Source: Bacteroidales bacterium (GTDB lineage: Bacteria > Bacteroidota > Bacteroidia > Bacteroidales > UBA932). Taken from it: a stretch of DNA of 36,681 nt. The notes beneath the pieces are model-generated. The model saw only the letters and a list, made by a program, of their open reading frames with translations, was not told the origin of the DNA and made no database searches. The stretch is from the NCBI GenBank assembly GCA_017559545.1, contig JAFYRK010000008.1, positions 1-36,681 on the forward strand. The letters are read 5' to 3'. The translations under genes were made by a program, and so were the position numbers. This document shows, in pieces, positions 23,307 through 36,681 of this stretch (within the stretch, counting starts at the first letter, position 1; each line of letters starts with the position of its first letter).

Positions 23307-24242
23307 CTACTTTGGTTCTTTCGGAACCTTAGTCTTTTTCTTTATAGGGATTTGCAGGAATTTTCTAATCTGTGTGCTTGATGCGGATGTCTTTTGCTTA
23401 AGAATTCCCGTCAGTTGCACCTTCATTCCAGTATCCATTGTCAACACAGACCTGCAGTCAGCAATATTCATATTGTTCAGGCATGAAATGATTTCCCTAT
23501 AAGGAACATCAGTCTTTCCGTAGTGATTTTCCTTGATTTCATGTTCACTGCCTGTATTCGAATTGATTGCAATGACCATGTCTTCATATGACTTATAATA
23601 CTTGCAGACCATTTCTGTGTCAAACGGAAAAAACACTTCAAGTATGTATTGGGTCAATATTCTCTTTTCGTGCTTAGAAAGGTCTTTATATAGATAGTCC
23701 AGAAGAGTGTATTTTAGGTAATACCCTTTGTTGAAATTGTCTTTTACCATTTTCATAGACCTTTTCAGTTTTCTGCTCCTTTTCATTGTTGTGCTGACAG
23801 GGGTATATTCCGGGCAATAGAGACGCAGAAAGTTCCATGTATAATCCTCCGCTTTTGTGCATAGCTGCTTTTCGACAGGATTATTGAAAAGGTATGCTAT
23901 AGCGGACCTGATCTTTTTCCACTCCATCTTGACCGCACTGCCATATGCTTTCTTGAAAAGCGGTCCGCTTCTTCCTGTGTGTAGATTGAATTCACGTACG
24001 AACACTGATGTGTATGCAGATATAAATCTGCTCAGCATCTCAAGGTTGCTGCATGATGCAAGCAGGTGCGTATGATCAATCATCAGACACATGGCCAACA
24101 GGTTTATCCCAAACTTTTTAGCATAAACCGACACAATCGTGTAGAATAGGATGAAATCTTCAAGACAATAGAAAACATTATAACCGGATATGGTTCTTTG
24201 ATAAATGTGCATAATGCCATCTTCGTTAAACTTCCTTTTCAT
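23307..24242 (-). CDS. REP-associated-type tyrosine (Y1/HUH) transposase
   Basis: The 311-residue protein belongs to the Y1 transposase superfamily. The HUH metal motif is in MIDHTHLLAS (His57, His59). The RAYT-like sequence FVREFNLHTGRSGPLFKKAYGS follows, then AYLFNNPVEKQLCTKAEDYTWN, where Tyr117 is the probable nucleophile. A basic C-terminal extension (residues 160-311) is longer than in minimal RAYTs. These enzymes nick and join single-stranded DNA at hairpins and are linked to REP palindromes. It is a lone gene flanked by two hairpins with the core GGGTCGGA/G, which could be its substrates. All motifs are intact, so it is probably active or recently so. Confidence 0.88.
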   Translation of the reverse strand: MKRKFNEDGIMHIYQRTISGYNVFYCLEDFILFYTIVSVYAKKFGINLLAMCLMIDHTHLLASCSNLEMLSRFISAYTSVFVREFNLHTGRSGPLFKKAYGSAVKMEWKKIRSAIAYLFNNPVEKQLCTKAEDYTWNFLRLYCPEYTPVSTTMKRSRKLKRSMKMVKDNFNKGYYLKYTLLDYLYKDLSKHEKRILTQYILEVFFPFDTEMVCKYYKSYEDMVIAINSNTGSEHEIKENHYGKTDVPYREIISCLNNMNIADCRSVLTMDTGMKVQLTGILKQKTSASSTQIRKFLQIPIKKKTKVPKEPK

Positions 24243-24914: not shown

Positions 24915-26615
24915 TCAGTCGATATAGTCCTGGTAGCCTATGTCCTTTACTTTTAAGTCAGGACAGTCAGGTAGGTCGAGGCCTTCAATCTGTTGCTTGA
25001 GAACCTGTGCCAGAGTCTTGGCCACATCTATCTTCTGTGCATTCCACAGGAATACGCTCCATGCGATACGCAGTACGAATCCGTTTATCTGTGCTGCGTT
25101 ATTAAGCTTGCGCAGGAAAATATCCGGGCTGGATGTGTCATGATATCTCTGCCTGTCGGTCTTGAATCCGTAGCAGATGTCCATAGTCTGCTCCAGTTCT
25201 GTGAAAAGCTTGTCAGCCTTTTCTATATTCTTGATCAAGAGGTCAGTGCCGTCAAATCCTTCATCTCCCTTCTTTCCGCCATATTCGATATGGAACTGTG
25301 TCGGGAACTCAGGCTCGTTTGCGCCGCTTGATGGGAGAAGGGTGATCACCCAGCTGTCCGCATCGGTAGTCACAGTGTTCATGTCTTCCATGAATTCATT
25401 GAGACCGGCAACTTCGCCCTTGAAACTCTGATTGTAGAACGACCTATATGGACGCGAAACGCCCAATTCGCGGCTTACGAGGTTAAATCCGCCTATTTTA
25501 GCCAGATAATAAGCATAATATCCTATCGCAGCGTCCATGCTGCTGGAAGGTGCAACGATAGTGATTTTAGAGCCTCTGTTTATGAAGCAGCCGTACGGGC
25601 GGTTAAGCACGAAATGCTCGATAGCCAACTTGTCCGGAGCCATTCTGTCAGCAGGAACAGTCGTGCCCAGATTAACTACTCTGAAGTCATCCGACATATC
25701 TACAACCTTGAAAATATCGGCTTCAGCCAATCCCTGAGAGGCCTGAACATTGGCGAACGGCAGACTCATAGGGGAGAGGTAAAATCCAGTGTGCACGTCA
25801 AGTTTTCTCTCGAATGCAAGATGCAGCTTCTTAGAGATGGACTTGAGTGTCTCCTTCTCTTTCTGCGCATTCACGGCCTGGAGGAATCCTGAGCCGATAA
25901 GTCCGGCTGGTACGGCGAAGATTGCAATTTTCAGGATACCGATTGCGCATGCGATAAGCTTTCCGATTGTCGATGCCGGTGGAACATAAGCGAATCCTCC
26001 AGGATCCTTGATATATTGGTTAAAAGCCCATACCATGGCCTTCCAACCGTTAGAATAGTATTCCGACTGCTCCTTATTCTCCACAAAGAACAGAAGGAAT
26101 GAAAGAATCAAGGTTATGATGCAAAGGAACTGAAGCGACACAGCAAGCTCTGCCTTCTTTGACATAAATGCAGCCTTGAGCAGCTTGAAAGAGGTCATGT
26201 ACCTGAAGATCCTTAGCAATCTAACGATTCGTAGTACCTTGAATGCGGAGTACGGGATAGGGAAGAAGAAACCCAGATAGAATGGATATGTCGCCAGAAT
26301 GTCTATGAATCCGTAGAAACTGAAGCAGTATTTCAGCCTACCCTTGAATCCTTTGTATTCTGGCTTTATATCCCCAGCCAACCAGATTCGGAGAGTAACC
26401 TCTATGGTAAATACGATGGTTGTGAATATATCAATGAATTTAAGGATGCCTCCTATCCTTTCGTTTACTCCTGTGAATGTAGAAAGGAAGATTTCAATGG
26501 TGCTGATAACAATCAGTGAAATGATCAAAGCATCTACCGCCTTGTCTATTCTCGTTTTCTTATCGTCATCAAGCGCCTCTGCTATGACTTTTTTTAATTG
26601 CTGAAATCTGCTCAT
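24915..26615 (-). CDS. Voltage-gated-type ion channel with large C-terminal domain (copy A)
   Basis: The 566-residue protein has the six-helix fold of the ion transport family. S1 is near 25-45, S2 60-80, S3 96-115. S4 is LRIVRLLRIFRYM with regularly spaced Arg (129, 132, 135, 138). S5 is 155-178, a pore loop 190-209, and S6 217-247. The filter position reads DPGGFA (204-209), not TVGYGD, so ion selectivity cannot be assumed. A cytoplasmic domain of about 300 residues follows, with DKLAIEHFVLNRPYG and PSSGANEPEFPTQFH; I recognise no family in it. Copy B (28140-29843) is a clear paralogue over its full length. It is last in the minus-strand operon. Confidence 0.85.
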   Translation of the reverse strand: MSRFQQLKKVIAEALDDDKKTRIDKAVDALIISLIVISTIEIFLSTFTGVNERIGGILKFIDIFTTIVFTIEVTLRIWLAGDIKPEYKGFKGRLKYCFSFYGFIDILATYPFYLGFFFPIPYSAFKVLRIVRLLRIFRYMTSFKLLKAAFMSKKAELAVSLQFLCIITLILSFLLFFVENKEQSEYYSNGWKAMVWAFNQYIKDPGGFAYVPPASTIGKLIACAIGILKIAIFAVPAGLIGSGFLQAVNAQKEKETLKSISKKLHLAFERKLDVHTGFYLSPMSLPFANVQASQGLAEADIFKVVDMSDDFRVVNLGTTVPADRMAPDKLAIEHFVLNRPYGCFINRGSKITIVAPSSSMDAAIGYYAYYLAKIGGFNLVSRELGVSRPYRSFYNQSFKGEVAGLNEFMEDMNTVTTDADSWVITLLPSSGANEPEFPTQFHIEYGGKKGDEGFDGTDLLIKNIEKADKLFTELEQTMDICYGFKTDRQRYHDTSSPDIFLRKLNNAAQINGFVLRIAWSVFLWNAQKIDVAKTLAQVLKQQIEGLDLPDCPDLKVKDIGYQDYID

Positions 26616-26640: not shown

Positions 26641-27111
26641 TTACAGCACTCCCATCATCAGGAAAGGGACCGGTACCGGTCCGCCGTAAGTCATCACTAT
26701 ATCTGATGAATTTGTGTAGCGGCCTCTATACAGATGCTTTCCGTCATAAGTGAACAGAATGTCAGAAGAATTAGTGTATCTGCCCTTATAGATATGCTTT
26801 CCGTCCCATGTGTAGAGGATATCAGACGAGTTGGTGTATCTTCCGCGGTATACATGCTCACCGTCCCAAGTGTACAGGATGTCTGATGAGTTGGTATATC
26901 TGCCTCTATACAGATGTTTTCCGTCCCAAGTGTAGAGAATGTCGGAAGAGTTGGTATACCTTCCGCTGTAAAGGTGTCTTCCATCCCAAGTGTAGAGGAT
27001 GTCCGAGGAGTTTGTATAGCGTCCTCTGTAGATGTGTGTATCTGCCATAGTTAAAATGGTTCCTGCAATAAGCAGACATAAAGTTAATGTAACTTTTTGT
27101 AATATCTTCAT
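26641..27111 (-). CDS. Secreted protein made of six 20-residue repeats
   Basis: The start MKILQKVTLTLCLLIAG (27111) gives a signal peptide; an in-frame Met 11 codons upstream would lie in the decayed channel gene. The 156-residue product consists almost entirely of six units of the pattern H-[IL]-Y-x-G-R-Y-T-N-S-S-D-I-L-Y-T-W-D-G-K (residues 26-145). The end is short and hydrophobic (VPVPFLMMGVL). The repeats suggest a beta-rich repeat structure such as a propeller or solenoid. Repeat identity at protein level is very high, so copy number may vary. The function is unknown. It lies between the decayed third channel and channel copy A. Confidence 0.8.
   Translation of the reverse strand: MKILQKVTLTLCLLIAGTILTMADTHIYRGRYTNSSDILYTWDGRHLYSGRYTNSSDILYTWDGKHLYRGRYTNSSDILYTWDGEHVYRGRYTNSSDILYTWDGKHIYKGRYTNSSDILFTYDGKHLYRGRYTNSSDIVMTYGGPVPVPFLMMGVL
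26677..27036 (-). repeat. Six tandem 60-bp coding repeats
   Basis: Six in-frame 60-bp units encode the 20-residue repeats. The units differ mostly at synonymous positions, while the YTNSSDI core is kept. The units are contiguous with no spacers, so this is not a CRISPR array. Confidence 0.9.
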
Positions 27112-27140
27112 ACTAGTTGATATAATCACCGAATCCAAAA

Positions 27141-27401
27141 TCATGACCTTTTCACCTCAGGCTCGAATGCCTCGTTGAATACGTCTGCTATTGTCTTGGC
27201 AACATGGTATGCGAACCAGCCTGTAAGAGGTTCAGTATAGCCCGATGTGAAAACTATGGTGACCTATGAGCCTCTGTCGATGCATCCGATGATGGCATAA
27301 TCAACGTAGTTATGCCACTGCTTTGTGTGCAGGTTGTCATCGAACACCCTGTTCAGTTCCTGACGGAACCTATCTATTTTGGATAGTTGTTGCTCTGACA
27401 T
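27141..27401 (-). pseudogene. Decayed third copy of the channel gene
   Basis: Reading from ATG at 27401, the first 39 codons give MSEQQLSKIDRFRQELNRVF then DDNLHTKQWHNYVDYAIIG, nearly the N-terminus of channel copy B. The frame then jumps to CIDRGS, a TAG stop (27266-27264), and VTIV. In the intact channels this corresponds to the C-terminal domain sequence IDRGSKVTIV. The last part, VAKTIADVFNEAFEPEV, resembles their C-terminal tails (KIAQSMAEIIKKHVEPEA). At least two internal deletions and a Lys-to-stop change are implied. The DNA near 27285-27360 is almost identical to copy B at 29735-29815. It ends in TGA at 27143-27141. Confidence 0.85.
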
Positions 27402-27407
27402 AATAGG

Positions 27408-28133
27408 TTAGTTTTGGGTTTCAATTATTTCCAAGACAAAGTTAAGACAATTCTTTAACTGTGGGAATATAGTGTACTCACTGTTCTTATGTGCGTCATA
27501 ATATCCGCAGCTGAGGTTGCATACCGGTATCTTAAGTCCGCGCATCTTAAGTTCCACCACATCGGTCTTGCCTCCTCTTACCATTTCATATCCGTATTTC
27601 TCTAGTAAGTCTCCTGGTATGAAATCAGGATCGCACAAGATAGTGTCCATCTTTCCGATTGATACGACATCGGAGCATCCCTTGCGGTCACATTGGAGAA
27701 TGTATTTTACATCATTGAACCATCTCAGGTTGCACTGATGCGATCCGCGACAACCAGCAATGTCGCCATCACGCTCTTCCTGAACGAAAAGTGATGCCTT
27801 CATCACAGGGACAGAATGCAACAAGTTTATAATGATCCATAATCCGTTCTTGTCATCGGCTCCACATCCTACCCTGTTCCATAGTCTGTCCACAGTATAG
27901 ACCTTGTCGCCTTCGGTAATGACCTGGCGTTCACAAGGACTGTGGATCTCGTCAAGATGTGCTGCTACGCAAGGATAGGTTTCCGCCTCTCCCTTTGTGA
28001 TGAAAAGGTTTCCTATCTCGTCTGTTTCCACAGTTATGGATACGTCATTAAGACAATCAAGCACGAAGGACTTTATCATGTCCTCCATGCCTGACTTAGA
28101 TATTATTCGATATAACCGACTTAATAGTTCCAT
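27408..28133 (-). CDS. Zinc metallopeptidase of the M20/M28/M42 type
   Basis: The 241-residue protein contains the ligand set of di-zinc aminopeptidase-fold enzymes: AAHLDE (His59), GCGADDKNG (Asp93), QEERDGD (Glu119/Glu120), CDRKG (Asp149) and YYDAHKNSEYT (His215). It is shorter than most M20/M42 enzymes and lacks an obvious lid or dimerisation insert, so it may be a minimal catalytic domain. No signal peptide is seen, so it is probably cytoplasmic. It ends 6 bases after the decayed channel start and begins 6 bases after channel copy B, so it is cotranscribed with B. The substrate is unknown. Confidence 0.85.
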   Translation of the reverse strand: MELLSRLYRIISKSGMEDMIKSFVLDCLNDVSITVETDEIGNLFITKGEAETYPCVAAHLDEIHSPCERQVITEGDKVYTVDRLWNRVGCGADDKNGLWIIINLLHSVPVMKASLFVQEERDGDIAGCRGSHQCNLRWFNDVKYILQCDRKGCSDVVSIGKMDTILCDPDFIPGDLLEKYGYEMVRGGKTDVVELKMRGLKIPVCNLSCGYYDAHKNSEYTIFPQLKNCLNFVLEIIETQN

Positions 28134-28139
28134 ATCTTG

Positions 28140-29843
28140 TTAGATTGTATATCCCTCATAAGCGATACCCTTGGTCTTGAGTTCCGGATCAAGTTCGTTG
28201 CAAGCCTCTGGCTCTACATGCTTCTTTATTATTTCTGCCATTGATTGTGCAATCTTGATTCTGCGAGAATCCCAGTATATGCAGCTCCACGCCAGTCTGA
28301 TGATGAGACCATTGACAGACTCCGTATTAGATAGCTTACGCATATACAGATTTGGACTTGCGCTGTCGTGGTATTTCTGGCGGTCTGTCTTGATTCCATA
28401 CTCGCTTTCCAAGGTATGCTCAATTTCACCGAACATTGCCTTGGCAGTCTCCTTGTCATGGATGAGCACTGTAGGAGCATCAAGGCTAGGATCTCCCTTT
28501 TTTCCTCCGAAAGTGAGGTGGATTTGCGAATCCATTTCGGGTTCGTTAGCGCCGCTTGCGGCCAGCAGTGTCACTACCCAGCTTCCTTCACGTGCTGACA
28601 GTTTTTCTATATCTTCCATGTATTCCTTGAGTCCAGGAACTTCGGAACTACAGACATAGTATGATTGATAAGGGCGCAACTCTCCAAGTTCCCTGCTGAC
28701 AAAATTGAAACCTCCGAGTTTAGCGAAATAGTAAGAATACGCGCCTATTACTGGGTCAACAAGGCTGGAAGGTGATACAATCGTCACTTTTGAGCCTCTA
28801 TCTATCATGTAGCCGTATGGACGGTTGATCATAAAATGTTCAATCGCAAGTTTATCCATCGGTCTTTCGTCCACAGGTACTGTTGCGGCGATATTGATGA
28901 TTCTGAAGTCTTCGGAATTTTCTACAGCCTCGATAATATCGTTTTCCGTCAGCCTCATCCTTGCTATGATTTCCTGTATGCTGAGGTTTAAAGGAGCAAT
29001 CTGCAGACGTGTGAAGCGACAGAGTTTGCGCTCAAATGCAAGGTGGAGCTTTTCCTTGTTCTCTTTGATTTCTTCTGCATGACTATCTGCGTCCATAACT
29101 TCTGTAAACGCAGATCCGATAAGTCCGGCAGGCACGGCGAAGATAGCGATTCCGAGGATACCGATAGCGCAGGCGATGAGTCTTCCGACCAATGAGATCG
29201 GCGGTGTGTCAGCGAATCCACCTGGGTCACCGATGTACTGAGCAAAAGCCCATACGACAGATCTCCATCCGTTGTTATAGATCTCTGGCTGCACCTCGTG
29301 CTCCACGAAGAACAGGATGAATGACAGAATCAGTGTTACAATACAGAGGAACTGCAGCGATACGATCATCTCCTGCTTCTTGGCCTTGATTGCACGCGAA
29401 AGGATGCTGAATGCCTTCATGTATCTGAAGATACGGAGCAGACGCGCGATTCGGAGTGCCTTGAGAGCCGTGTACGGAATCTTGACAAAGAAGTTCAGGT
29501 AGAACGGATATGTCGATAAGATGTCGATCAGTCCGTAGAACGAGAAGCAGTATCTTACTCGTCCCCAGAATCCTTTATACTTTTCGTCAAGAAGGTCTGC
29601 GCACCAGATTCGGAGCGATACTTCGATAGTAAAGAAGAATGTTGTGAAGTAGTCCACAAAGTGCAGCCACTTTCCGTACTTCTCCACGATGCCGTCGTAA
29701 GTCGAAAGGAACACCTCGACGGTTGATAGGACGATAAGTCCGATGATGGCATAATCAACGTAGTTATGCCACTGCTTTGTGTGCAGGTTGTCATCGAAGA
29801 CTCTGTTCAGTTCGTGCCTGAACTGCTCTATTTTAGCTTTCAT
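28140..29843 (-). CDS. Voltage-gated-type ion channel with large C-terminal domain (copy B)
   Basis: This paralogue of copy A has 567 residues and the same architecture. S4 reads LRIARLLRIFRYM. The pore loop WAFAQYIGDPGGFADTPP has DPGGFA (206-211) in the filter position, and S6 contains GIAIFAVPAGLIGSAF. The C-terminal domain keeps DKLAIEHFMINRPYG, MIDRGSKVTIV and ASGANEPEMDSQIH, so both halves are under common constraint. Four bases separate it from the upstream barrel gene. Two channels may form heteromers or respond to different signals; this is inference. Confidence 0.85.
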   Translation of the reverse strand: MKAKIEQFRHELNRVFDDNLHTKQWHNYVDYAIIGLIVLSTVEVFLSTYDGIVEKYGKWLHFVDYFTTFFFTIEVSLRIWCADLLDEKYKGFWGRVRYCFSFYGLIDILSTYPFYLNFFVKIPYTALKALRIARLLRIFRYMKAFSILSRAIKAKKQEMIVSLQFLCIVTLILSFILFFVEHEVQPEIYNNGWRSVVWAFAQYIGDPGGFADTPPISLVGRLIACAIGILGIAIFAVPAGLIGSAFTEVMDADSHAEEIKENKEKLHLAFERKLCRFTRLQIAPLNLSIQEIIARMRLTENDIIEAVENSEDFRIINIAATVPVDERPMDKLAIEHFMINRPYGYMIDRGSKVTIVSPSSLVDPVIGAYSYYFAKLGGFNFVSRELGELRPYQSYYVCSSEVPGLKEYMEDIEKLSAREGSWVVTLLAASGANEPEMDSQIHLTFGGKKGDPSLDAPTVLIHDKETAKAMFGEIEHTLESEYGIKTDRQKYHDSASPNLYMRKLSNTESVNGLIIRLAWSCIYWDSRRIKIAQSMAEIIKKHVEPEACNELDPELKTKGIAYEGYTI

Positions 29844-29846
29844 ATG

Positions 29847-30602
29847 TTATTTGTTTATCTGCCATGCAACACCGCAGCTGATTGCCCAGCACTGTGCAGG
29901 ATTTGTAAGGTCAATATTGGCGGCAACGTCAAGCTGTACCCTTCTGCTGACCTGCCAGTTGAGGCCGAAGTCCATGCAGTATGCGTTGCCGAGTTCATTG
30001 AAGTAATTGTAGCTCTCCACGAAGCATCCAAGGCTGTCAGTTGCACTGAAACCAAGGCAGAGAGCCGCAAATGTTGTGGCTCCTGGGAGTGTTCCGTCCC
30101 ACTCTGCCCCCAGGTTGTATCCAATGCTCAGCCAATCACAGACTGGATTCTCAAAAAGGAGATAAAGTGATGGTGCAAGGTGATCTACGTTGAAGCCATC
30201 ACTTGCTGTGCGTGGAATAGAGAAATCCGCGAGTACAGATACAGCCGGAATAGCTCCATGGCCATCGAAGCATTTTATCTTCGTTCCTACGCTGAGGCCT
30301 GAAAATGCCGGAATATATGAAGTTGATCTTCCATCAGAAGAATAAAGGAATCCATCTCCGCCCAATCGAAGCTCCATATGGGGGAAAAGTCCATAGCGAA
30401 GCAGGGTATTGCTGAATGTGAATGTACCAGCTCCTCCGTCTCCGTCATATTGGAGTCCCTGCTCAAGCTGAATCACTCCCTTACCCACAACGCTCGGACC
30501 AGTTGATGCACCAGGCCTATCTGCAGTAAATTCTACCTCGTTTTGTGCAAACGCCGTAAAACAACAGAGGCTAAATGCCAATAATCCAAATAGTTTTTTC
30601 AT
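29847..30602 (-). CDS. Outer-membrane beta-barrel-like protein (phenol-degradation MetA/toluene-transport type)
   Basis: The 251-residue protein has a signal peptide (MKKLFGLLAFSLCCFTAFAQ). The mature part starts EVEFTADRPGASTGPSVVGKGVIQLEQGLQYDGDGGAG-like sequence, which is typical of the transporter-like barrel family annotated as MetA-pathway of phenol degradation. Alternating strands with aromatic ends continue to the C-terminus (CWAISCGVAWQINK). Despite the family name, no aromatic degradation genes are near. It is embedded in the accessory operon, 31 bases after the peptidase gene pcp. Confidence 0.75.
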   Translation of the reverse strand: MKKLFGLLAFSLCCFTAFAQNEVEFTADRPGASTGPSVVGKGVIQLEQGLQYDGDGGAGTFTFSNTLLRYGLFPHMELRLGGDGFLYSSDGRSTSYIPAFSGLSVGTKIKCFDGHGAIPAVSVLADFSIPRTASDGFNVDHLAPSLYLLFENPVCDWLSIGYNLGAEWDGTLPGATTFAALCLGFSATDSLGCFVESYNYFNELGNAYCMDFGLNWQVSRRVQLDVAANIDLTNPAQCWAISCGVAWQINK

Positions 30603-30633: not shown

Positions 30634-31230
30634 CTAATTTAACAATATTTCTTGTTCTATAATAGTTTTTATTATCGTTCTCACTGCGTCCGCCAGAATG
30701 TCAACGGTAAAGACCTCGCTTATCTTCGGGAGGTGGACAAACACAGCCCTCATCGGAAGCGAATGCCTATATATCTCGTCAAGGGCGTTATAATATGTGG
30801 TGTTGCACACATATAATCCGGCACTGTTTGACACCCTTGCAGGTATGCCTTTCTGCAGTACGGCGTCCCTTAGCGCCTTTACAGGAAGGTTGCTGAAATA
30901 TGCGGACTCGCCATCTTTCACGATGGGTATCTCCTGCGGACAATCTCCGTCATTGTCCGGCTTGGACGAATCCATAAGGTTTACGGCGATTCTTTCGACA
31001 TCAATGCTCTGTCCTTTCCCAAGCTGCCCAAGCATTATCAGTACGTCAGGTCTGGACTCATTCAGAATTTCCCTGACAGTTTCTCCTGCCTTTCTGAAAC
31101 TCACCGGCAATCGCCGAACCTTAATATTTACATCTTTGGGAGCCAACTGCCCCACTCGGGCCGCTGTCTCCCACGACGAATTGATATCCGAGCCCCCAAA
31201 CGGCTCAAAACCAGTAATAAGAATTTGCAT
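30634..31230 (-). CDS. pcp: Pyrrolidone-carboxylate peptidase (pyroglutamyl peptidase I)
   Basis: This cysteine peptidase of family C15 removes N-terminal pyroglutamate. The start MQILITGFEPFGG (31230) matches the family; a Met 9 codons upstream overlaps the previous gene. The 198 residues contain all three catalytic positions: Glu in SIDVERIAVN, Cys in SAGLYVCNTTYYN and His in FVHLPKI. It is cytoplasmic, with no signal peptide. Its place inside an operon of nuclease, channels and another peptidase is unusual for a gene normally found alone. Confidence 0.92.
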   Translation of the reverse strand: MQILITGFEPFGGSDINSSWETAARVGQLAPKDVNIKVRRLPVSFRKAGETVREILNESRPDVLIMLGQLGKGQSIDVERIAVNLMDSSKPDNDGDCPQEIPIVKDGESAYFSNLPVKALRDAVLQKGIPARVSNSAGLYVCNTTYYNALDEIYRHSLPMRAVFVHLPKISEVFTVDILADAVRTIIKTIIEQEILLN

Positions 31231-31238
31231 GGTGTCTG

Positions 31239-31901
31239 TTAAATCTCCGCGATACAATAATAAAATGCATGTTCTCCTAATCGGGTATCTGCCCAGTTGA
31301 GGTAGTAGTCTTTAGATAAGTCAAACCCCTTACGGGACTGTGTAATGCTTGTCTCTCTCTGCCAGTGCTTGGATCTTGAGTTCCATCCCTCGCACATGCA
31401 GAATTCTCTGTTGTTGGAAGTCTCGCGCGAAAGAGTCTTATAGGCCTTGTCGTTGGTCAGAAACACTGCAAGTCCCGACTTTACGTTCGAAAACCTCTCC
31501 ATGACCATCTCGACCCTTTTAACATCCTTCCAGAAGTCATACATGCCGATATCCTGTGCCCCTTGGTTCTTTACAACGACCACATTGTCGACCTGCTCTC
31601 CGAATCGATTGAGTGAAGCCTCTATCTTTCTGGTCTTGTACTTCAGCTCGATAGGGCAGTACTCCGTACCCTTTCTCACCAAGATATCCAGTCTCAATTC
31701 TGTGTCCCAGATGTCTTTGTATCCATTCAAAAGGCTGTTCGGCACAAAATACTCCAAGTCAACATCATCGTAATGACCTGAGTCTTTGAGATGCGTAGCA
31801 AGATGCATCTGGAAATCTCTTTCATTGAAGAGAATTTCCAGATGCTTTTGATTCAGATATGAAACAATATCTGATTTTACTATGTCAATCAATCTTGCCA
31901 T
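31239..31901 (-). CDS. PD-(D/E)XK nuclease-like protein
   Basis: The 220-residue protein shows the core of the PD-(D/E)XK phosphodiesterase fold. There is an N-terminal helix with Glu28 (FNERDFQMHLATHL), then LRLDILV (Asp72) and CPIELKYKTR (Glu85-x-Lys87). It then continues with VVVVKNQGAQDIGMYDFWKDVKRVE, and SGLAVFLTND. This pattern suggests a DNA endonuclease or repair/defence nuclease. No separate methyltransferase or specificity subunit is nearby. The gene lies 3 bases after the Lys-rich module protein and 8 bases before pcp. Confidence 0.75.
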   Translation of the reverse strand: MARLIDIVKSDIVSYLNQKHLEILFNERDFQMHLATHLKDSGHYDDVDLEYFVPNSLLNGYKDIWDTELRLDILVRKGTEYCPIELKYKTRKIEASLNRFGEQVDNVVVVKNQGAQDIGMYDFWKDVKRVEMVMERFSNVKSGLAVFLTNDKAYKTLSRETSNNREFCMCEGWNSRSKHWQRETSITQSRKGFDLSKDYYLNWADTRLGEHAFYYCIAEI

Positions 31902-31904
31902 TGA

Positions 31905-32444
31905 TTATCTTGCCACTCCCTTCTTGCAGCCGTCCTTTTCGCACTCTGCATTGAACGAAGCCAGAGTCTTCTCATCATCGCTGCCGGATGTGTAATATCT
32001 CTTGCCCTCTGCTGTTGTGTAGCAGATCTGAGCGTACAGACCGAATACTGTATCAAATTCCTTCTCAAGGCTCTTGATCTTCTTGTTTCCAGAGATAGAG
32101 ATGTCTCCGCCTGAGTCTGCTCTACGAACAGAAGCCAAAGTCTTGTCCGCATCAATCTGAGTAATAGTCTCTCCCTTGGCTACCGCCTGTCTTGCATAGC
32201 TGTAATAGATTCCAAGACGGATATATGGGAACTTCTTGTTAAACTCCTTCTGAAGTGTTCCGATCTTCTTATTTCCGCTTACAGAAATCTCAGTGGTTTT
32301 CTTTACAACCGGTTTTGCAGCAGGCTTAGCTGCAGCCTTCGTAGTAGTCTTCTTGGTTGTTGTGGTTGCCTTCTTGACAGCTGTCTTAGCTGTAGTAGTC
32401 TTCTTGGCAGCTGGTTTAGCTGCAGTCTTTTTTACTGGTGGCAT
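31905..32444 (-). CDS. Lys/Ala-rich-tailed protein with two copies of a repeated module
   Basis: Residues 1-48 form a histone-H1-like basic tail of KKTAAKPAAKK/TTK repeats, a plausible nucleic-acid-binding region. Two ~50-residue modules follow: one begins ISVSGNKKIGTLQKEFNKKFP, the other ISISGNKKIKSLEKEFDTVFG, each ending with a TLAS sequence (TLASVRR, TLASFNAE). The same module occurs twice in each of three upstream proteins (32791-33105, 33151-34479, 34513-34869). The protein has 179 residues and no signal peptide or membrane segment. I do not know a function for the family. Confidence 0.75.
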   Translation of the reverse strand: MPPVKKTAAKPAAKKTTTAKTAVKKATTTTKKTTTKAAAKPAAKPVVKKTTEISVSGNKKIGTLQKEFNKKFPYIRLGIYYSYARQAVAKGETITQIDADKTLASVRRADSGGDISISGNKKIKSLEKEFDTVFGLYAQICYTTAEGKRYYTSGSDDEKTLASFNAECEKDGCKKGVAR

Positions 32445-32466
32445 AGTTTAGTGTATTTAATGATTA

Positions 32467-32712
32467 TTATTTCTTTAGTCTTGCCAGAGCCTCTTTGGCA
32501 TCCTCAATCTGACGCTTGTAGTATTCGATGTCGCGATCGTGACTTGCAGCCTTGTCGATTTTTGATTTGCGATACGAAGCCTTTGAAGACGGACTTGATG
32601 CACTCTTGATCATGCGTGCATAATACTCATTATCTCTCTTCTTCTCCTCCTTCTCTCTTGCAATCTTTGCACGAAGATCGATGATCTTCTTCTTGTAATA
32701 CTCTTTGCTCAT
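32467..32712 (-). CDS. Small basic coiled-coil protein
   Basis: The 81-residue protein is highly charged (Lys/Arg/Glu) and predicted helical throughout. It starts MSKEYYKKKIIDLRAKIAREKEEK-like and ends YYKRQIEDAKEALARLKK, with a Ser-rich break near residues 38-46. No family is recognised. It lies between two module-bearing genes, 22 bases upstream of the Lys-rich one. A DNA-binding or assembly role is possible but unsupported. Confidence 0.65.
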   Translation of the reverse strand: MSKEYYKKKIIDLRAKIAREKEEKKRDNEYYARMIKSASSPSSKASYRKSKIDKAASHDRDIEYYKRQIEDAKEALARLKK

Positions 32713-32739
32713 GATTTTAGTGTTTTATGGTTAAATAGC

Positions 32740-32769
32740 TGTCAAGGCAGCGTTCAGGCTGCCTTGACA
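32740..32769 (-). terminator. Intra-operon hairpin (possible attenuator)
   Basis: TGTCAAGGCAGC (32740-32751) pairs perfectly with 32758-32769 around a 6-nt loop. On the minus strand it follows the 32791-33105 gene, but only a weak T-rich tract (GCTATTTAACC) comes after, so it may attenuate expression or stabilise an mRNA 3' end rather than terminate fully. Confidence 0.6.
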
Positions 32770-32790
32770 ATGAAAACATGTTGGGGCAAA

Positions 32791-33105
32791 TTACTTACCA
32801 GCCTGGCAAAGAGTGAGTGAGTTGTCAGCGAGAGCTGTGTCGTCAGCGTTAGCTACCTGAACGCCGATTCCGTAGAGCTCAGCAACCTTCTTCTCGAAGT
32901 TACCAACCTGCATGTTACCCTTAACTACGAGGTCGCCACCTTTGTGACCCTCTGCACGGATTGAAGCGAGAGTAGCCTCATCATCTGCGAAACCGCCTTT
33001 GCATGATGCGCTCTTGTAAACGCGAAGTGTCGAACCGAAGTTCTCCTTGAAGTTAGCCTTAAGGGTCTTTACCTTAGTACGGCCGTTGAGTGTAAATTCT
33101 GCCAT
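32791..33105 (-). CDS. Small protein consisting of two copies of the repeated module
   Basis: The 104-residue protein is nothing but two modules. The first is EFTLNGRTKVKTLKANFKEN-FGSTLRVY and then DDEATLASIRA. The second is LVVKGNMQVGNFEKKVAELY-GIGVQV and then ALADNSLTL. Each has a strand, a helix ending in F/Y-G, a strand and a short acidic T-L segment. Its first module is almost identical to that of the OmpA-type protein next to it. It has no signal peptide. The function is unknown. Confidence 0.8.
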   Translation of the reverse strand: MAEFTLNGRTKVKTLKANFKENFGSTLRVYKSASCKGGFADDEATLASIRAEGHKGGDLVVKGNMQVGNFEKKVAELYGIGVQVANADDTALADNSLTLCQAGK

Positions 33106-33150
33106 GATTTTAGAATTTAAAATGTTAATAATTAACGTATTGAGTTGTTG

Positions 33151-34479
33151 TTATTCTACTACGATGAATTCTGTTCTTCGGTTTTCCGGTGCAGTCGGAT
33201 TTTCCGGGTTCTTAGGCTCCGATGAGCCCTTGCCTATAGCCTCGAGACGAGATGCGTCAATTCCGCGTGAGATCATGAAGTCAACAGCTGCCTGTGCTCT
33301 CTGTTCTGAAAGCTTCTGGTTGAATGTGGCGTCGCCTTCTGCAGAAGTGTGGCCGACAAGCTGAAGCTTGATAGAAGGGTGCTTCTGCATCATCTTTGCG
33401 AGGTCGTGAAGAACGAACTTTGCGCTTTCGCTGAGGTCAGCCTTTCCGGCAACGAACTCTGCTGCGTTGAAGTTCTTTTCGATCTCCTCGATCTGCTGAA
33501 CATATACAGTGTCAACTACAGTTACGACCTTCTCTACCTCTACGATCTGTGGCTCTGGCTTTCTGCCGAGGAGAGCAGCGAGAAGTGCAAGAAGTATTAC
33601 GATAGCTGCGATTGCTATCCAAAGACCTGCCTTTGACTTCTTCTTCTCCTCCGGCACCGGTGGAACGTAGCCGTTGAGGTATTCCAGATAGAACTGACCT
33701 TTTTTCCCTCCGCCGGGAGCCTTCTCGAAGTCTGCTACAAGGATTCCGTACTGTTTAGCATGAGTAGCAAATGCTTCGAAGCAGTTCTTTGTCCACATTA
33801 TGCGGAATGCTACCTTTGTTCCGTCGCCCATTGTGAGAAGTTCGTCTTCTTTGATGAAGTAGTCTAACCAGCCGTTTTCATGTGTGGCATTCTCCTCGAT
33901 AGGGATAAATATTTCTTTGCCGTCCGCTGTTGGATTAAGCTGCTTAGGGAACGCTTTGCGAAGATCCTCAAGAGTTGCATGAGGATACATGATCATATAA
34001 GCATGCGCGATGCCGAGAGCAGTGCGGTTCTGGGCCTTGCCATATACCCTTACTTTTGCACTTGCAAGCTCTGCTGCTGTTGCCTGAACGTTTGGAGTAG
34101 CTTCAACTTCAGCTTTCTTTGCGAGAGACTCTGTGGTTACCTGTGCTTTTCCGCCGTCAGCTGAAGCTGTTCCGGCTGCGGTAGCGAGAGTGGCAGCATC
34201 ATCAGCAAACTGAGTGTCGTCAGCGTTGGCTACCTGTACTCCGATACCATAAAGCTCTGCAACCTTCTTCTCAAAGGTTCCTACCTTTGTGTTGCCTTTT
34301 ACTGTAAACTCGCCACCTGCGAAACCTTCTGCGCGGATAGATGCAAGTGTTGCCTCGTCATCTGCGAGCTCCTTGCAATCAACTGTAGTGTAAACGCGGA
34401 GTGTTGCCCCGAAATTTTCTTTAAAGCTGGCCTTCAAGTTTTTGACTTTGGTTCGGCCATCCAGTGTAAAATCTGCCAT
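33151..34479 (-). CDS. Membrane-anchored OmpA-type protein with two N-terminal repeated modules
   Basis: The 442-residue protein has four parts. Residues 1-100 are two copies of the module (FTLDGRTKVKNLKASFKENFG; FTVKGNTKVGTFEKKVAELYG). Residues 140-255 are an alpha/beta domain I cannot name (ATLEDLRKAFPKQLN, TMGDGTKVAFRIMWTK). A single membrane helix lies at 285-305. The C-terminus (about 335-442) is an OmpA/peptidoglycan-binding domain with LVGHTSAEGDATFN and ENRRTEF. There is no signal peptide, so the modules should face the cytoplasm and the OmpA domain the periplasm and cell wall. This topology could connect cytoplasmic module proteins to the envelope. Confidence 0.85.
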   Translation of the reverse strand: MADFTLDGRTKVKNLKASFKENFGATLRVYTTVDCKELADDEATLASIRAEGFAGGEFTVKGNTKVGTFEKKVAELYGIGVQVANADDTQFADDAATLATAAGTASADGGKAQVTTESLAKKAEVEATPNVQATAAELASAKVRVYGKAQNRTALGIAHAYMIMYPHATLEDLRKAFPKQLNPTADGKEIFIPIEENATHENGWLDYFIKEDELLTMGDGTKVAFRIMWTKNCFEAFATHAKQYGILVADFEKAPGGGKKGQFYLEYLNGYVPPVPEEKKKSKAGLWIAIAAIVILLALLAALLGRKPEPQIVEVEKVVTVVDTVYVQQIEEIEKNFNAAEFVAGKADLSESAKFVLHDLAKMMQKHPSIKLQLVGHTSAEGDATFNQKLSEQRAQAAVDFMISRGIDASRLEAIGKGSSEPKNPENPTAPENRRTEFIVVE

Positions 34480-34512
34480 ATGTTGAATAGCTTTATCGTC
34501 GGTTGCTTGGTC

Positions 34513-34869
34513 TTAGAATTCTGTGCGGGAAGCTTCGCCGATGGTCATGTCGTTCGGAACGAGTTTGCTGCCTTTCTTGATCTGTACGGTTACACCGAAT
34601 TGTGTGTCGAAGAGTTTCTCAGCGTCACCTACCTTCATGCTGCCCTTGATCTTCATGCCGTCAGCCTTGGTGTCGACTGTCTTGCTGGTCTTGTCGTTGA
34701 GCTGCTTGAGTGTGAGGTCTCCGTCAGCGATCTGCTTTCCTTTATAGAATACGAGCTCTACGCCGAATGCTTTTTCGAATTCGGATGAAATTGTCTTCAG
34801 CTTTTTGTTAGGAGCTACTGTGAATTCAGCCTTAGTGAAATTGTCTTTGATTTTGTCAAAAAGTCCCAT
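34513..34869 (-). CDS. Small protein with two divergent copies of the repeated module
   Basis: The 118-residue protein starts MGLFDKIKDNFTK. It has one module FTVAPNKKLKTISSEFEKAFG followed by VELVFYKGKQIADGDLTLKQL, and a second, MKIKGSMKVGDAEKLFDTQFG then LVPNDMTI. The first copy looks ubiquitin-like by eye (ubiquitin has LIFAGKQLEDGRTLSDY), which hints at a beta-grasp fold; this is not proof. It is the first gene of the minus-strand run and lies about 50 bases downstream of the structured RNA. Confidence 0.75.
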   Translation of the reverse strand: MGLFDKIKDNFTKAEFTVAPNKKLKTISSEFEKAFGVELVFYKGKQIADGDLTLKQLNDKTSKTVDTKADGMKIKGSMKVGDAEKLFDTQFGVTVQIKKGSKLVPNDMTIGEASRTEF

Positions 34870-35252: not shown

Positions 35253-36449
35253 TTAGTCTTTTATCGTGCTGTATGGTCGGTATGACTCATCATTGCCTAT
35301 CAGGTTCACATAGAATATACGTTCATCTGGACTCATTTCATGGTTCATCATACTTTCCATCCGGCAGATATGATTGACGACTCTGTCGTAATGTTTGTTC
35401 ACAAGGGTTTGGTAATGGAGGGTGAATCCGCTGACAAGAGCTTGATCGTCAGTTAGTTTCGGAAATGTCTTCCATATCTTTCCTAGTTCATTGTACGTTT
35501 TAGAGAGTTCTATGTAGCCGAATTCCTGGAACGGAATGTTTTCCAATTTGCTGTCCAATTCTGCGAAGGCTGCGTCAACCTTCTTCTTTGTGTCGTTATA
35601 CACGGAGTCGCAGAACATTGCCTTGGCATTTTCGCGGTCCTTGAATTCCTTGAGATCCACGACTTTCTTGCCGAGAGATATTCCGACCGAGGCAAGCAGG
35701 GTCAAGATAATGGCAGCGGAGGCTGTGAGGAGAGGGTAGTGTCTGCGCTTTATTGCCTTCTGGAGTGATTCCACGTCAGCATATCGATCGGATGCATTCA
35801 TGCGGGACGCCTTGGACGATATCCTTCCAAGTCTTTTACCGAAAATATCCTTCATTATCTTACCGAGAGAAAAGATGTCGCTGCGACTGTCGGTCTTTTC
35901 TTGTCTCAGCAGTTCAGGTGAGGCATACTCTGCTGTGCATCCTAATGTCTTTGTAAGGTAATGGGCATCGTCGTCCGAAAGTCCGAAATCAATGATCTTG
36001 ACGGTGTTGTCGACTCGTGTTATGAGTATATTTCCCGGCTTGAGGTCGTTGTGTATAATACCTTTGCGGTGCATGTACGCAGAAGCTTCCAGAATCTGGG
36101 TGAATACCTTTTTTCTTGTCTCCATTGAGGGATTTTCAGCAATGAACTCACCAAGAGTCCTTCCGTCCACGTATTCCATTACTAAACCAGGCCCCACAGG
36201 AGAATCCTCCTCAAACGTGAATACGTTGATTATATGTGGATGAGACAGAGTGATTGATAGCTCATATTCTCGTCTTATAAGTGCTTCAAACCTGCTGTTT
36301 CCGTCTTTTGCGGTCTTTATGATGAAGTATTTTCCAGCTCTTGCGACACGATAAAGCGTGTTGATAGTTCCTTCCTTGATAAGGATGGGTCCGTAATATG
36401 TTTCACCGACTAACTTTTCAATAGGGAGAATCTCTGAATCGCTCTGCAT
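35253..36449 (-). CDS. Membrane-bound Ser/Thr protein kinase (Hanks type)
   Basis: The 398-residue protein has an N-terminal kinase domain (about 15-235). Lys45 lies in FIIKTAKDG, the catalytic loop is HNDLKPGN (Asp135), DFG is at 154-156 and the SPE triplet at 177-179. The glycine-rich loop is degenerate (KEGTINTLYRV). A membrane helix at about 239-259 leads to an extracytoplasmic helical domain of ~140 residues with no recognised family. The catalytic residues are intact, so activity is expected. It faces a divergent gene at 36532 and lies directly upstream of the structured RNA and module operon, which may contain its substrates. Confidence 0.92.
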   Translation of the reverse strand: MQSDSEILPIEKLVGETYYGPILIKEGTINTLYRVARAGKYFIIKTAKDGNSRFEALIRREYELSITLSHPHIINVFTFEEDSPVGPGLVMEYVDGRTLGEFIAENPSMETRKKVFTQILEASAYMHRKGIIHNDLKPGNILITRVDNTVKIIDFGLSDDDAHYLTKTLGCTAEYASPELLRQEKTDSRSDIFSLGKIMKDIFGKRLGRISSKASRMNASDRYADVESLQKAIKRRHYPLLTASAAIILTLLASVGISLGKKVVDLKEFKDRENAKAMFCDSVYNDTKKKVDAAFAELDSKLENIPFQEFGYIELSKTYNELGKIWKTFPKLTDDQALVSGFTLHYQTLVNKHYDRVVNHICRMESMMNHEMSPDERIFYVNLIGNDESYRPYSTIKD

Positions 36450-36531: not shown

Positions 36532-36681
36532 ATGAATGTAAAGTCCGATTTGCCACAGATAGCACAGCTTAAAAGACAGGTCGAGCAGTCTATTGATTTT
36601 CCTCTGTCTACTCATGGTGATTTCCTGCGATTATCAGCAGGAATAGAATTCACGTTGCGAGAACACATGTCAGAAAGTACC
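36532..36681 (+). CDS. Partial gene of unknown function, runs off the window
   Basis: The frame is open for 50 codons from ATG to the last base. It begins MNVKSDLPQIAQLKRQVEQS and continues with THGDFLRLSAGIEFTLREHMSEST. The good promoter just upstream supports the start. From memory, similar N-termini occur in Bacteroidota proteins that continue with a helix-turn-helix-like region, so a DNA-binding regulator is possible, but the decisive part is missing. It is divergent from the kinase gene. Confidence 0.6.
   Translation, partial: MNVKSDLPQIAQLKRQVEQSIDFPLSTHGDFLRLSAGIEFTLREHMSEST

Follow-up and report, generated by a model that had tools for sequence, protein, structure and literature searches.

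The Zorya anti-phage system combines effectors with a membrane protein whose OmpA/MotB-like domain binds peptidoglycan, and to our knowledge it contains neither a kinase nor the paired modules (doublets) described here. In conflict systems, small adaptor domains link a sensing core to effectors that vary. Zorya is presented as ZorA/ZorB with effectors (PMC11890865), and conflict systems are presented with effector-associated adaptor domains (PMC7159879, PMC8195603). We analysed a 36,681-nt stretch of a Bacteroidales contig (JAFYRK010000008.1), hereafter the window, in which an operon headed by a Ser/Thr kinase (KIN) contains four doublet genes, A to D. PADLOC gave only weak matches to protein B (ZorB, E 3.5e-5 and 0.014, to the OmpA part; Aga_Helical-REase, E 0.028). 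Other OmpA families fit this part far better (YiaD, E 2.6e-23). No ZorA is listed to complete a ZorA and ZorB pair among the ten proteins scanned with PADLOC, which include A, B, KIN, NUC220 and the channel (for the kinase, the best 25 of 37 families); A, NUC220 and the channel had no PADLOC match. The PADLOC kinase defences PD-T4-6, mad6 and Stk2 share the Ser/Thr kinase domain (mad6, E 1.5e-39; PD-T4-6, E 2.8e-37), but the match is to a generic kinase domain, whereas the kinase here stands at the head of an operon in which adaptors are combined with exchanged effectors. As a putative adaptor, the doublet would play a part like that of the conflict-system domains; unlike in those systems, the sole P-loop NTPase family noted in the operons is an optional KAP NTPase (9/53 loci). 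In titles and the openings of abstracts, we found no description of the operon or the module.

The analysis establishes that the modules are shared, that the genes are arranged as an operon, that the distribution is patchy and that effector genes are replaced while the core is kept. From the sequences, we consider it reasonably probable that Bacteroidales carry an undescribed anti-phage (or anti-plasmid) system, spread by horizontal transfer, in which the doublets serve as adaptor domains. The operon is perhaps an unrecognised defence against viruses, and its exchangeable effector enzymes probably attack DNA.

The paired module and its likeness to ubiquitin

The preliminary description had noted eight copies of a ~45-residue module, two in each of the genes at 34513, 33151, 32791 and 31905, and this was borne out by the open reading frames and by a module profile. 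With this profile, seeded with seven of the eight window copies, A, B, C and D each show two modules and no more (E 2e-14 or better), and these four genes are the sole module matches in the assembly from which the window comes, which is 69% complete. Pairwise alignments of the modules beat all 500 of their own shuffles in 21 of 28 cases; for the remaining pairs, 1 to 12 shuffles reach the score, with the exception of C1-C2 (69/500), and B1/C1 and B2/C2 are near-duplicates. The eight copies form four doublets, in which first halves are closest to other first halves and not to second halves, and the two halves were told apart in 64/64 proteins, both ways, under 4-fold cross-validation. That the halves are distinguishable across proteins indicates one old duplication before the spread of the doublet. 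The unit is the pair, since 172 of 181 module proteins have two modules, while three have four and six have one.

A is a stand-alone doublet of 118 aa with a 13-residue N-terminal extension, predicted as an open reading frame at 34513-34869 on the minus strand, with modules at 34699-34830 and 34531-34659 (profile E 4e-18 and 6e-19). Each module has a near-invariant threonine, T53 and T109 in A. C is also a stand-alone doublet (104 aa, 32791-33105, minus strand; modules at 32959-33102 and 32800-32937). The fusion of one pair to a membrane helix and an OmpA domain holds for B (442 aa, 33151-34479, minus strand), with an additional domain X of ~125 residues between the modules and the helix. In B, the module profile places the modules at 34336-34476 and 34180-34314; domain X, its limits set by eye against homologues, spans about 33694-34068, followed by the helix at 33553-33639 (residues 281-309) and the OmpA domain at 33187-33456 (residues 342-431; PF00691, E 7.2e-17). 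D (179 aa, 31905-32444, minus strand) does carry the histone-like basic tail that had been described, but at its N-terminus (32295-32444), with 15 lysines and no aspartate or glutamate in residues 1-50; its doublet follows at 32130-32291 and 31956-32108.

The search for a well-characterised family gave no clear match for the doublet in Pfam or NCBIfam, and none in the PDB; the doublet therefore deserves its own family entry in any case. Four weak Pfam leads were set aside: DUF7018 (5/64 members, best E 0.0012), Pro-kuma_activ (6/64, best E 0.036), DUF2492 (1/64, E 0.0018) and DUF5421 (1/64, E 0.0049).

A beta-grasp fold had been proposed from a by-eye likeness to ubiquitin, and for this we obtained a hint rather than proof. 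The profile of the first half can be aligned with ubiquitin (PF00240) from its second strand through the helix and third strand to the TL segment, with a score of 20.4 (hhalign probability 18%), which is above 100/100 column shuffles and 66/66 unrelated families. The second-half profile does not stand out, with 9/100 shuffles reaching its score, and Pfam ubiquitin matches A only below the cut-off (E 0.041; 14.1 bits against 25.4) and reaches E<1 in 3/64 doublets. The best PDB sequence match, ISG15, is not significant (E 0.28). A ferredoxin-like pairing of the two halves of the doublet (beta-alpha-beta twice) was also considered. The weak ubiquitin similarity could be read to mean that the doublet is a ubiquitin-like protein serving as a covalent tag. 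We regard this as very improbable, as the C-termini in the window are ...RTEF or ...AGK instead of di-glycine, and no E1/E2/JAB-type family is listed for the representative operon proteins scanned with Pfam. The doublet also differs from ubiquitin in being paired.

Gene content and distribution of the operon

KIN (35253-36449, minus strand; Pkinase E 3e-35) has the catalytic residues K45, H133-x-D135 and D154-F-G, which are conserved across at least 95% of the 31 homologues aligned, and a membrane helix at residues 238-264 followed by about 135 more residues. Next to it is the start of REG, a divergent putative regulator (open reading frame, 36532-36681, plus strand, cut by the contig end), assigned by its likeness by eye to a REG homologue and by the adjacency of KIN and REG in many loci. 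Between C and D lies coil81, a conserved, charged 81-aa protein (32467-32712, minus strand) that is coiled-coil-like by eye; it is a core gene with a homologue in 49/62 loci and without a significant Pfam family. NUC220, a putative PD-(D/E)XK nuclease (31239-31901, minus strand), is taken as the effector of the window operon.

The accessory genes, also on the minus strand, encode a pyroglutamyl peptidase-like protein (30634-31230; Peptidase_C15 E 2.3e-53; in 11/53 loci), an outer-membrane-like protein (29847-30602; PF13557 E 4.2e-15; 8/53) and a voltage-gated-channel-like protein (28140-29843; Ion_trans E 9.8e-20; 25/53). A weakly metallopeptidase-like gene (27408-28133, minus strand; sub-threshold M42 and PepT-like matches) closes the tightly spaced run after a 6-base gap, so that ten genes from A to 27408 share one strand at a spacing of 3-78 bases. 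A second channel-like gene (24915-26615, minus strand; Ion_trans E 1.8e-17) is possibly the end of the locus.

We propose a core of the membrane-spanning Ser/Thr kinase, the divergent regulator, adaptors A and C, and coil81, often joined by an inner-membrane protein that has a peptidoglycan-tethering OmpA domain and, on the cytoplasmic side, domain X, to which a doublet or a second small domain, s68, may be attached. The kinase, the nuclease-like gene and the kinase-headed operon with its exchangeable effectors had not been named in the preliminary description. The operon is scattered over Bacteroidales (24/393 genomes, own included), is present in 3/101 relatives, own included, and its core recurs in distant Bacteroidales. 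In six relatives of the same genus whose sequence extends at least 12 kb past FloA, no operon gene is seen in that region. One contig scan used A only as the query and favours close relatives of A. Searches of phages and plasmids with C and the L029 doublet, and of viral contigs with A and the L029 doublet, gave no match.

Candidate effectors in the window and in relatives

The active site of PD-(D/E)XK nucleases follows the pattern E ... D-x(n)-E-x-K. NUC220 fits this pattern through E27, D72 and E85-L-K87, which together with Q31 are invariant in 18/18 aligned homologues, and is thus a putative member, although it has no match in Pfam, NCBIfam or PADLOC and nothing significant in the PDB. 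Like NUC220, c12/c26 and c33 do not significantly match any nuclease in the databases searched. The c12/c26 protein may resemble an OGG-type glycosylase, a likeness that Pfam, NCBIfam, PADLOC and the PDB did not confirm, the PDB sequence search giving nothing significant among solved structures. Similarly, L014_04 and L036_10 may be kin of uracil-DNA-glycosylase, which Pfam, NCBIfam and PADLOC did not confirm.

Other effectors in the relatives' operons include three that PADLOC lists as anti-phage, namely the PvuRts1I-like modified-DNA restriction enzyme mREase_II (E 3.5e-74), the GIY-YIG protein PD-T4-3 (E 5.2e-47) and UzuA (E 1.5e-63), which sits between A and C in locus L117. While members of all three lie inside relatives' operons, none was found in the window, whose effector NUC220 is unnamed. 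A UzuA search matched 1/20 class genomes, partially.

Exchange of effector genes and a possible mechanism

Genes in the relatives were called with a codon-usage script, which missed some, and these calls gave no overlap between NUC220 and other effectors (0/53 loci). We rechecked this with tblastn on the DNA of 62 loci, with the s68 domain trimmed from the queries. NUC220 occurs in 22/62 loci and another of seven classes of effector in 33/62, but both together in 0/62 (hypergeometric 4.5e-11, not corrected for kinship); 7/62 loci lack all of these effectors. Three NUC220/PDDEXK4 overlaps in the untrimmed tblastn were rejected, as all were hits to the s68 domain with which one of the queries ended. 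In eight of the 62 loci, two or three effectors other than NUC220 occur together, so exclusiveness holds for NUC220 and not for all effectors. Parsimony requires at least 10 changes between NUC220 and other effectors on a quick core tree (36 of 44 rows labelled, from the codon-usage gene calls). L027 and L051 have flanking genes in common and very similar cores, yet L027 carries NUC220 and L051 carries c12.

The doublet is fused to effector c12 in L118_10, and the s68 domain is fused to a PDDEXK_4-like protein in L084_12 and, by eye, to c12 in L083_11 (identical with L008_01). On X-OmpA, again by eye, the doublet and s68 occupy the same N-terminal position. Across relatives, an OmpA anchor, an LRR protein, domain X, a basic tail and an effector are found joined to the doublet or bear it at places that other domains can also take. 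These varied partners and the exchange of effector genes support the modular recognition or assembly system suggested earlier.

The loci with several effectors, and flanks with defence-type genes of their own (among them one type I specificity subunit), could mean that defence genes gather at a hot-spot in which the doublet/kinase operon, unrelated to them, happens to be placed, without a joint mechanism. We consider this quite unlikely, as the effectors are located within the operon, interspersed with A, C and coil81, NUC220 is exclusive, and some effectors bear adaptor domains. For a PADLOC comparison, 75 genes drawn at random from 190 operon genes (150-700 aa, excluding doublets, kinase, REG and coil81) were set against 75 drawn at random from 173 flanking genes, matching 36 and 118 families, respectively. 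The best 25 of 36 in the operon set include KAP-type (4 members), mREase_II (3), PD-T4-3 (3), and AbiEii, PDC-S01, PDC-S04 and SoFic (1 each). The best 25 of 118 in the flank set include mad3, mad8 and PDC-S07 (2 each) and single members matching PDC-S02, PDC-S34, type I specificity, SspA and DndA models. The two sets are not clearly different, and the contrast proves little.

The operon could also serve an envelope or general stress response, like tellurite/Ter-type clusters, in which the kinase, wall-anchored sensor, channels and lipoproteins would repair or protect the envelope and the nuclease-like genes would be incidental cargo. Relatives' loci contain TerB (E 3.7e-9), DUF4230 (E 4.8e-30), WG repeats and, by eye, lipoprotein-like genes; the accessory TerB, DUF4230, peptidase, lipoproteins and channels fit stress and defence equally. 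Distant doublets adjoin universal-stress (UspA), CBS and cbb3-type oxidase genes (by eye), with no such effectors in view. Incidental cargo, however, would hardly replace NUC220 without overlap (0/62) or be fused to adaptor domains, and we regard the stress operon as unlikely. Against the defence reading, we count that NUC220, c12/c26 and c33 have no significant nuclease match, the unclear PADLOC contrast, the stress-type accessory genes and neighbours, the effector-free loci, the loci with several effectors, and the lack of matches in the plasmids, phages and viral contigs searched.

For the defence reading, we tentatively suggest, with less than even confidence, a new class of immune system with a plug-and-socket code, in which paired ubiquitin-like adaptors (and s68 as an alternative) would connect exchangeable effectors that attack DNA with the transmembrane kinase and a sensor anchored in the wall; a lineage could then swap its weapon by one gene with the sensor kept. 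In the adaptor reading that we hold reasonably probable, envelope disturbance during phage entry would be sensed by the kinase together with the wall-anchored protein, and the signal would go on to the doublets, perhaps via phosphorylation. The doublets would then deliver the effector (NUC220 in the window) to the incoming DNA or set it free there, the basic tail of D may assist at DNA, and the channel-like genes may form a second arm that targets the membrane. If this is right, it would be a testable case of a sensing core that accepts different effectors via small adaptor domains. Gut Bacteroidales would also gain a multi-gene defence system that is not yet listed, its core readily found by profile search and its effector collection including the unnamed NUC220, c12/c26 and c33.

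The doublet as the unit of the module family

The preliminary description had placed module-bearing genes at four positions with two modules apiece; the gene calls agree on A (34513-34869), B (33151-34479), C (32791-33105) and D (31905-32444), and a search with a module profile detects exactly one pair per protein. In pairwise alignments of the window copies, 21 of the 28 module pairs scored above all 500 of their own shuffles, while the weakest pair, the two halves of C, was equalled by 69 of 500 and the six remaining pairs by 1 to 12 of 500. The eight copies do form a real family, as had been proposed, but its true unit is the doublet, two ~45-residue modules in one protein, and not the single module. 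Among 181 proteins from the window and from loci fetched in relatives, in which a few overlapping loci cause some proteins to be counted twice, 172 contain two modules, three contain four and six contain one. These six comprise a 60-aa ORF, a protein whose start lies inside a module (L130_11), and four distant relatives whose other half seems discernible by eye. Because cross-validated half-profiles place 64/64 first halves and 64/64 second halves correctly and the two half-profiles are mutually related (hhalign probability 97%, E 1.1e-11), the sequences indicate that the doublet was born by duplication and afterwards spread as a pair.

Searches of the doublet against Pfam and NCBIfam gave nothing close to the cut-off wherever bit scores were given, and none of the sequences of solved structures matched significantly. 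Searched singly against Pfam, 64 doublets gave scattered weak matches, the best being DUF7018 (5 members, E 0.0012) and the commonest Pro-kuma_activ (6 members, best E 0.036); C had a single odd NCBIfam match (E 3.3e-4, 19.7 bits; cut-off 709). A matched Pfam ubiquitin at E 0.041. Against a profile of five ubiquitin-family sequences, the first-half profile scored 20.4, compared with maxima of 13.5 for shuffles (0/100 reached the score) and 16.9 for 66 unrelated families; the second-half profile was unremarkable, its score being reached by 9/100 shuffles. This weak likeness to ubiquitin merits testing. No description of the operon or the module was found in the part of the published journal literature that was searched.

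The kinase operon and its genome setting

The window has a run of ten same-strand genes, A through 27408, with 3-78 bases between neighbours, and the kinase lies 383 bases upstream of A, across a gap with two candidate strings of the Bacteroidetes promoter-like type. A beta-flower protein with a hydrophobic N-terminus (26641-27144; PF21786, E 3.1e-41) is located between both channel-like genes; repeats in a protein of locus L012 look like its own by eye. A 45-aa frame at 27264-27401 copies, by eye, the start of the channel-like gene at 28140-29843 and then stops; lying between that gene and the second channel-like gene, it is probably the remnant of an incomplete, decayed copy.

Gene calls in 53 loci gave the core genes coil81 (at least 38), kinase (at least 31) and REG (at least 31), together with the channel (at least 25), X-OmpA (domain X, membrane helix and OmpA domain; at least 24), s55 (at least 21), the putative PD-(D/E)XK effector NUC220 (at least 19) and lipo8 (at least 15), and more rarely a peptidase (at least 11), a KAP NTPase (at least 9) and TerB, DUF4230 and an outer-membrane-like protein (at least 8 each); these are lower bounds because contigs are often cut and the gene caller skips genes. 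With tblastn on the DNA of 62 loci, coil81 was found in 49, REG in 40 and the kinase in 37. The s55 group, called in 21 of the 53 loci (for example L052:7796-7960), is a strongly conserved basic peptide of ~55 aa that begins MKIPGLSFSLKRAVG; one member searched against Pfam matched no family.

With A as query, genome contigs gave 51 loci from 158 pattern matches, chiefly in Bacteroidales MAGs from herbivore guts, with Phocaeicola faecicola, two Flavobacteria-type records and a Muribaculaceae MAG among the few exceptions. The doublet profile matches 10/395 Bacteroidota and 24/393 Bacteroidales genomes, and A is present in 3/101 close relatives, so most lack it (the window's own genome is counted in each set). 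Doublets occur in three contexts: the kinase operon, orphans, some of them 202-aa proteins with a tandem of doublets (L125-L127), and distant doublets near stress- or oxidase-like genes. The last (L075-L082, L131, L132) have the motif FPFLKIEFY or alike, many adjoin UspA-, CBS-domain- or oxidase-like genes by eye, and they possibly represent a stress-linked branch of the family.

In six same-genus relatives whose sequence extends at least 12 kb past FloA, the conserved gene adjoining the window locus, that stretch contains none of the operon genes (L147-L151, L154; L146, L152 and L153 were too short past FloA and were excluded). The single same-genus relative found with the operon, G035, has it on contig C122 and its sole FloA match on C130. 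No mobile element bearing the operon was found among the plasmids, phages and viral contigs searched with doublets. An IS200-like transposase (23307-24242; Y1_Tnp, E 4e-6) lies where the locus meets the conserved block of NfeD and FloA, and a related copy follows FloA on contig C84 of the same assembly (L152). The assembly, 69% complete, may mix two species, since C84 carries a second g16701-g19858-NfeD-FloA-transposase block (86, 59, 64, 97 and 57% identity, respectively).

Effector classes and their replacement

Eight effector classes were counted. E27, Q31, D72 and E85-L-K87 of NUC220 (31239-31901) are unchanged in 18/18 homologues. The others are a PvuRts1I-like protein with an SRA domain (PADLOC mREase_II, E 3.5e-74), a GIY-YIG protein of PD-T4-3 type (PADLOC, E 5.2e-47), a second GIY-YIG class (E 1.2e-12), UzuA (E 1.5e-63), a PDDEXK_4-like protein (Pfam E 0.0018, below cut-off; PADLOC PDC-S26, E 6.7e-8), the mutually related c12 and c26 (probability 93%) and c33. 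We infer DNA as the target of NUC220, c12/c26 and c33. A PADLOC comparison of operon genes with flanking genes gave no clear separation. Two loci without a listed effector contain unmatched proteins (L014:3892-4857 and L036:6584-7333), which may be additional effectors; by eye we take them to recall uracil-DNA glycosylases, and database scans gave no confirmation of this.

By tblastn, 22 of the 62 loci have NUC220, 33 have another effector, none has both and seven have neither (P 4.5e-11, with loci taken as independent and kinship ignored). Three overlaps in an untrimmed count disappeared once the s68 domain was trimmed from two queries. On one quick tree of the joined core proteins A, C and coil81 (44 loci, 14/41 inner branches starred), the 36 rows labelled with an effector imply a minimum of 10 switches from NUC220 to another effector or back, and of 15 among five classes; the 8 loci without a called effector were set aside. 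The cores nearest to that of the window, L012 (PvuRts1I and GIY-YIG) and L010 (GIY-YIG), both lack NUC220. Four flanking genes are common to L027 and L051, and their cores are very similar, yet the first carries NUC220 and the second c12; the orientation of the kinase also differs between them. A single effector per locus is not universal, because eight loci carry two or three non-NUC220 effectors together.

Putative exchangeable domains and a possible signal relay

The kinase has catalytic residues, a single membrane helix and ~135 residues past it. X-OmpA also has a single helix, and since its basic flank is on the doublet side, the doublet is probably cytoplasmic and the OmpA domain periplasmic. 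The kinase and X-OmpA might sense the state of the envelope, and soluble doublets would relay the signal, for which phosphorylation is a candidate form, to the effector.

Judged by eye, X-OmpA starts with a doublet in L016, L017 and the window, and with a domain of the s68 type, a second small domain alternative to the doublet, in L013, L021 and L084 (= L006), whereas L047, L113 and L118 lack this N-terminal part; tblastn shows an s68-type start in L046. Both domains are also fused to other proteins: the doublet to effector c12 (L118_10) and at the end of a leucine-rich-repeat-like protein (L016_07) and of a lone X domain (L036_09), and s68 to a PDDEXK_4-like protein (L084_12) and, by eye, to c12 (L083_11). 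This pattern of fusion and N-terminal exchange is as would be expected for exchangeable adaptor domains.
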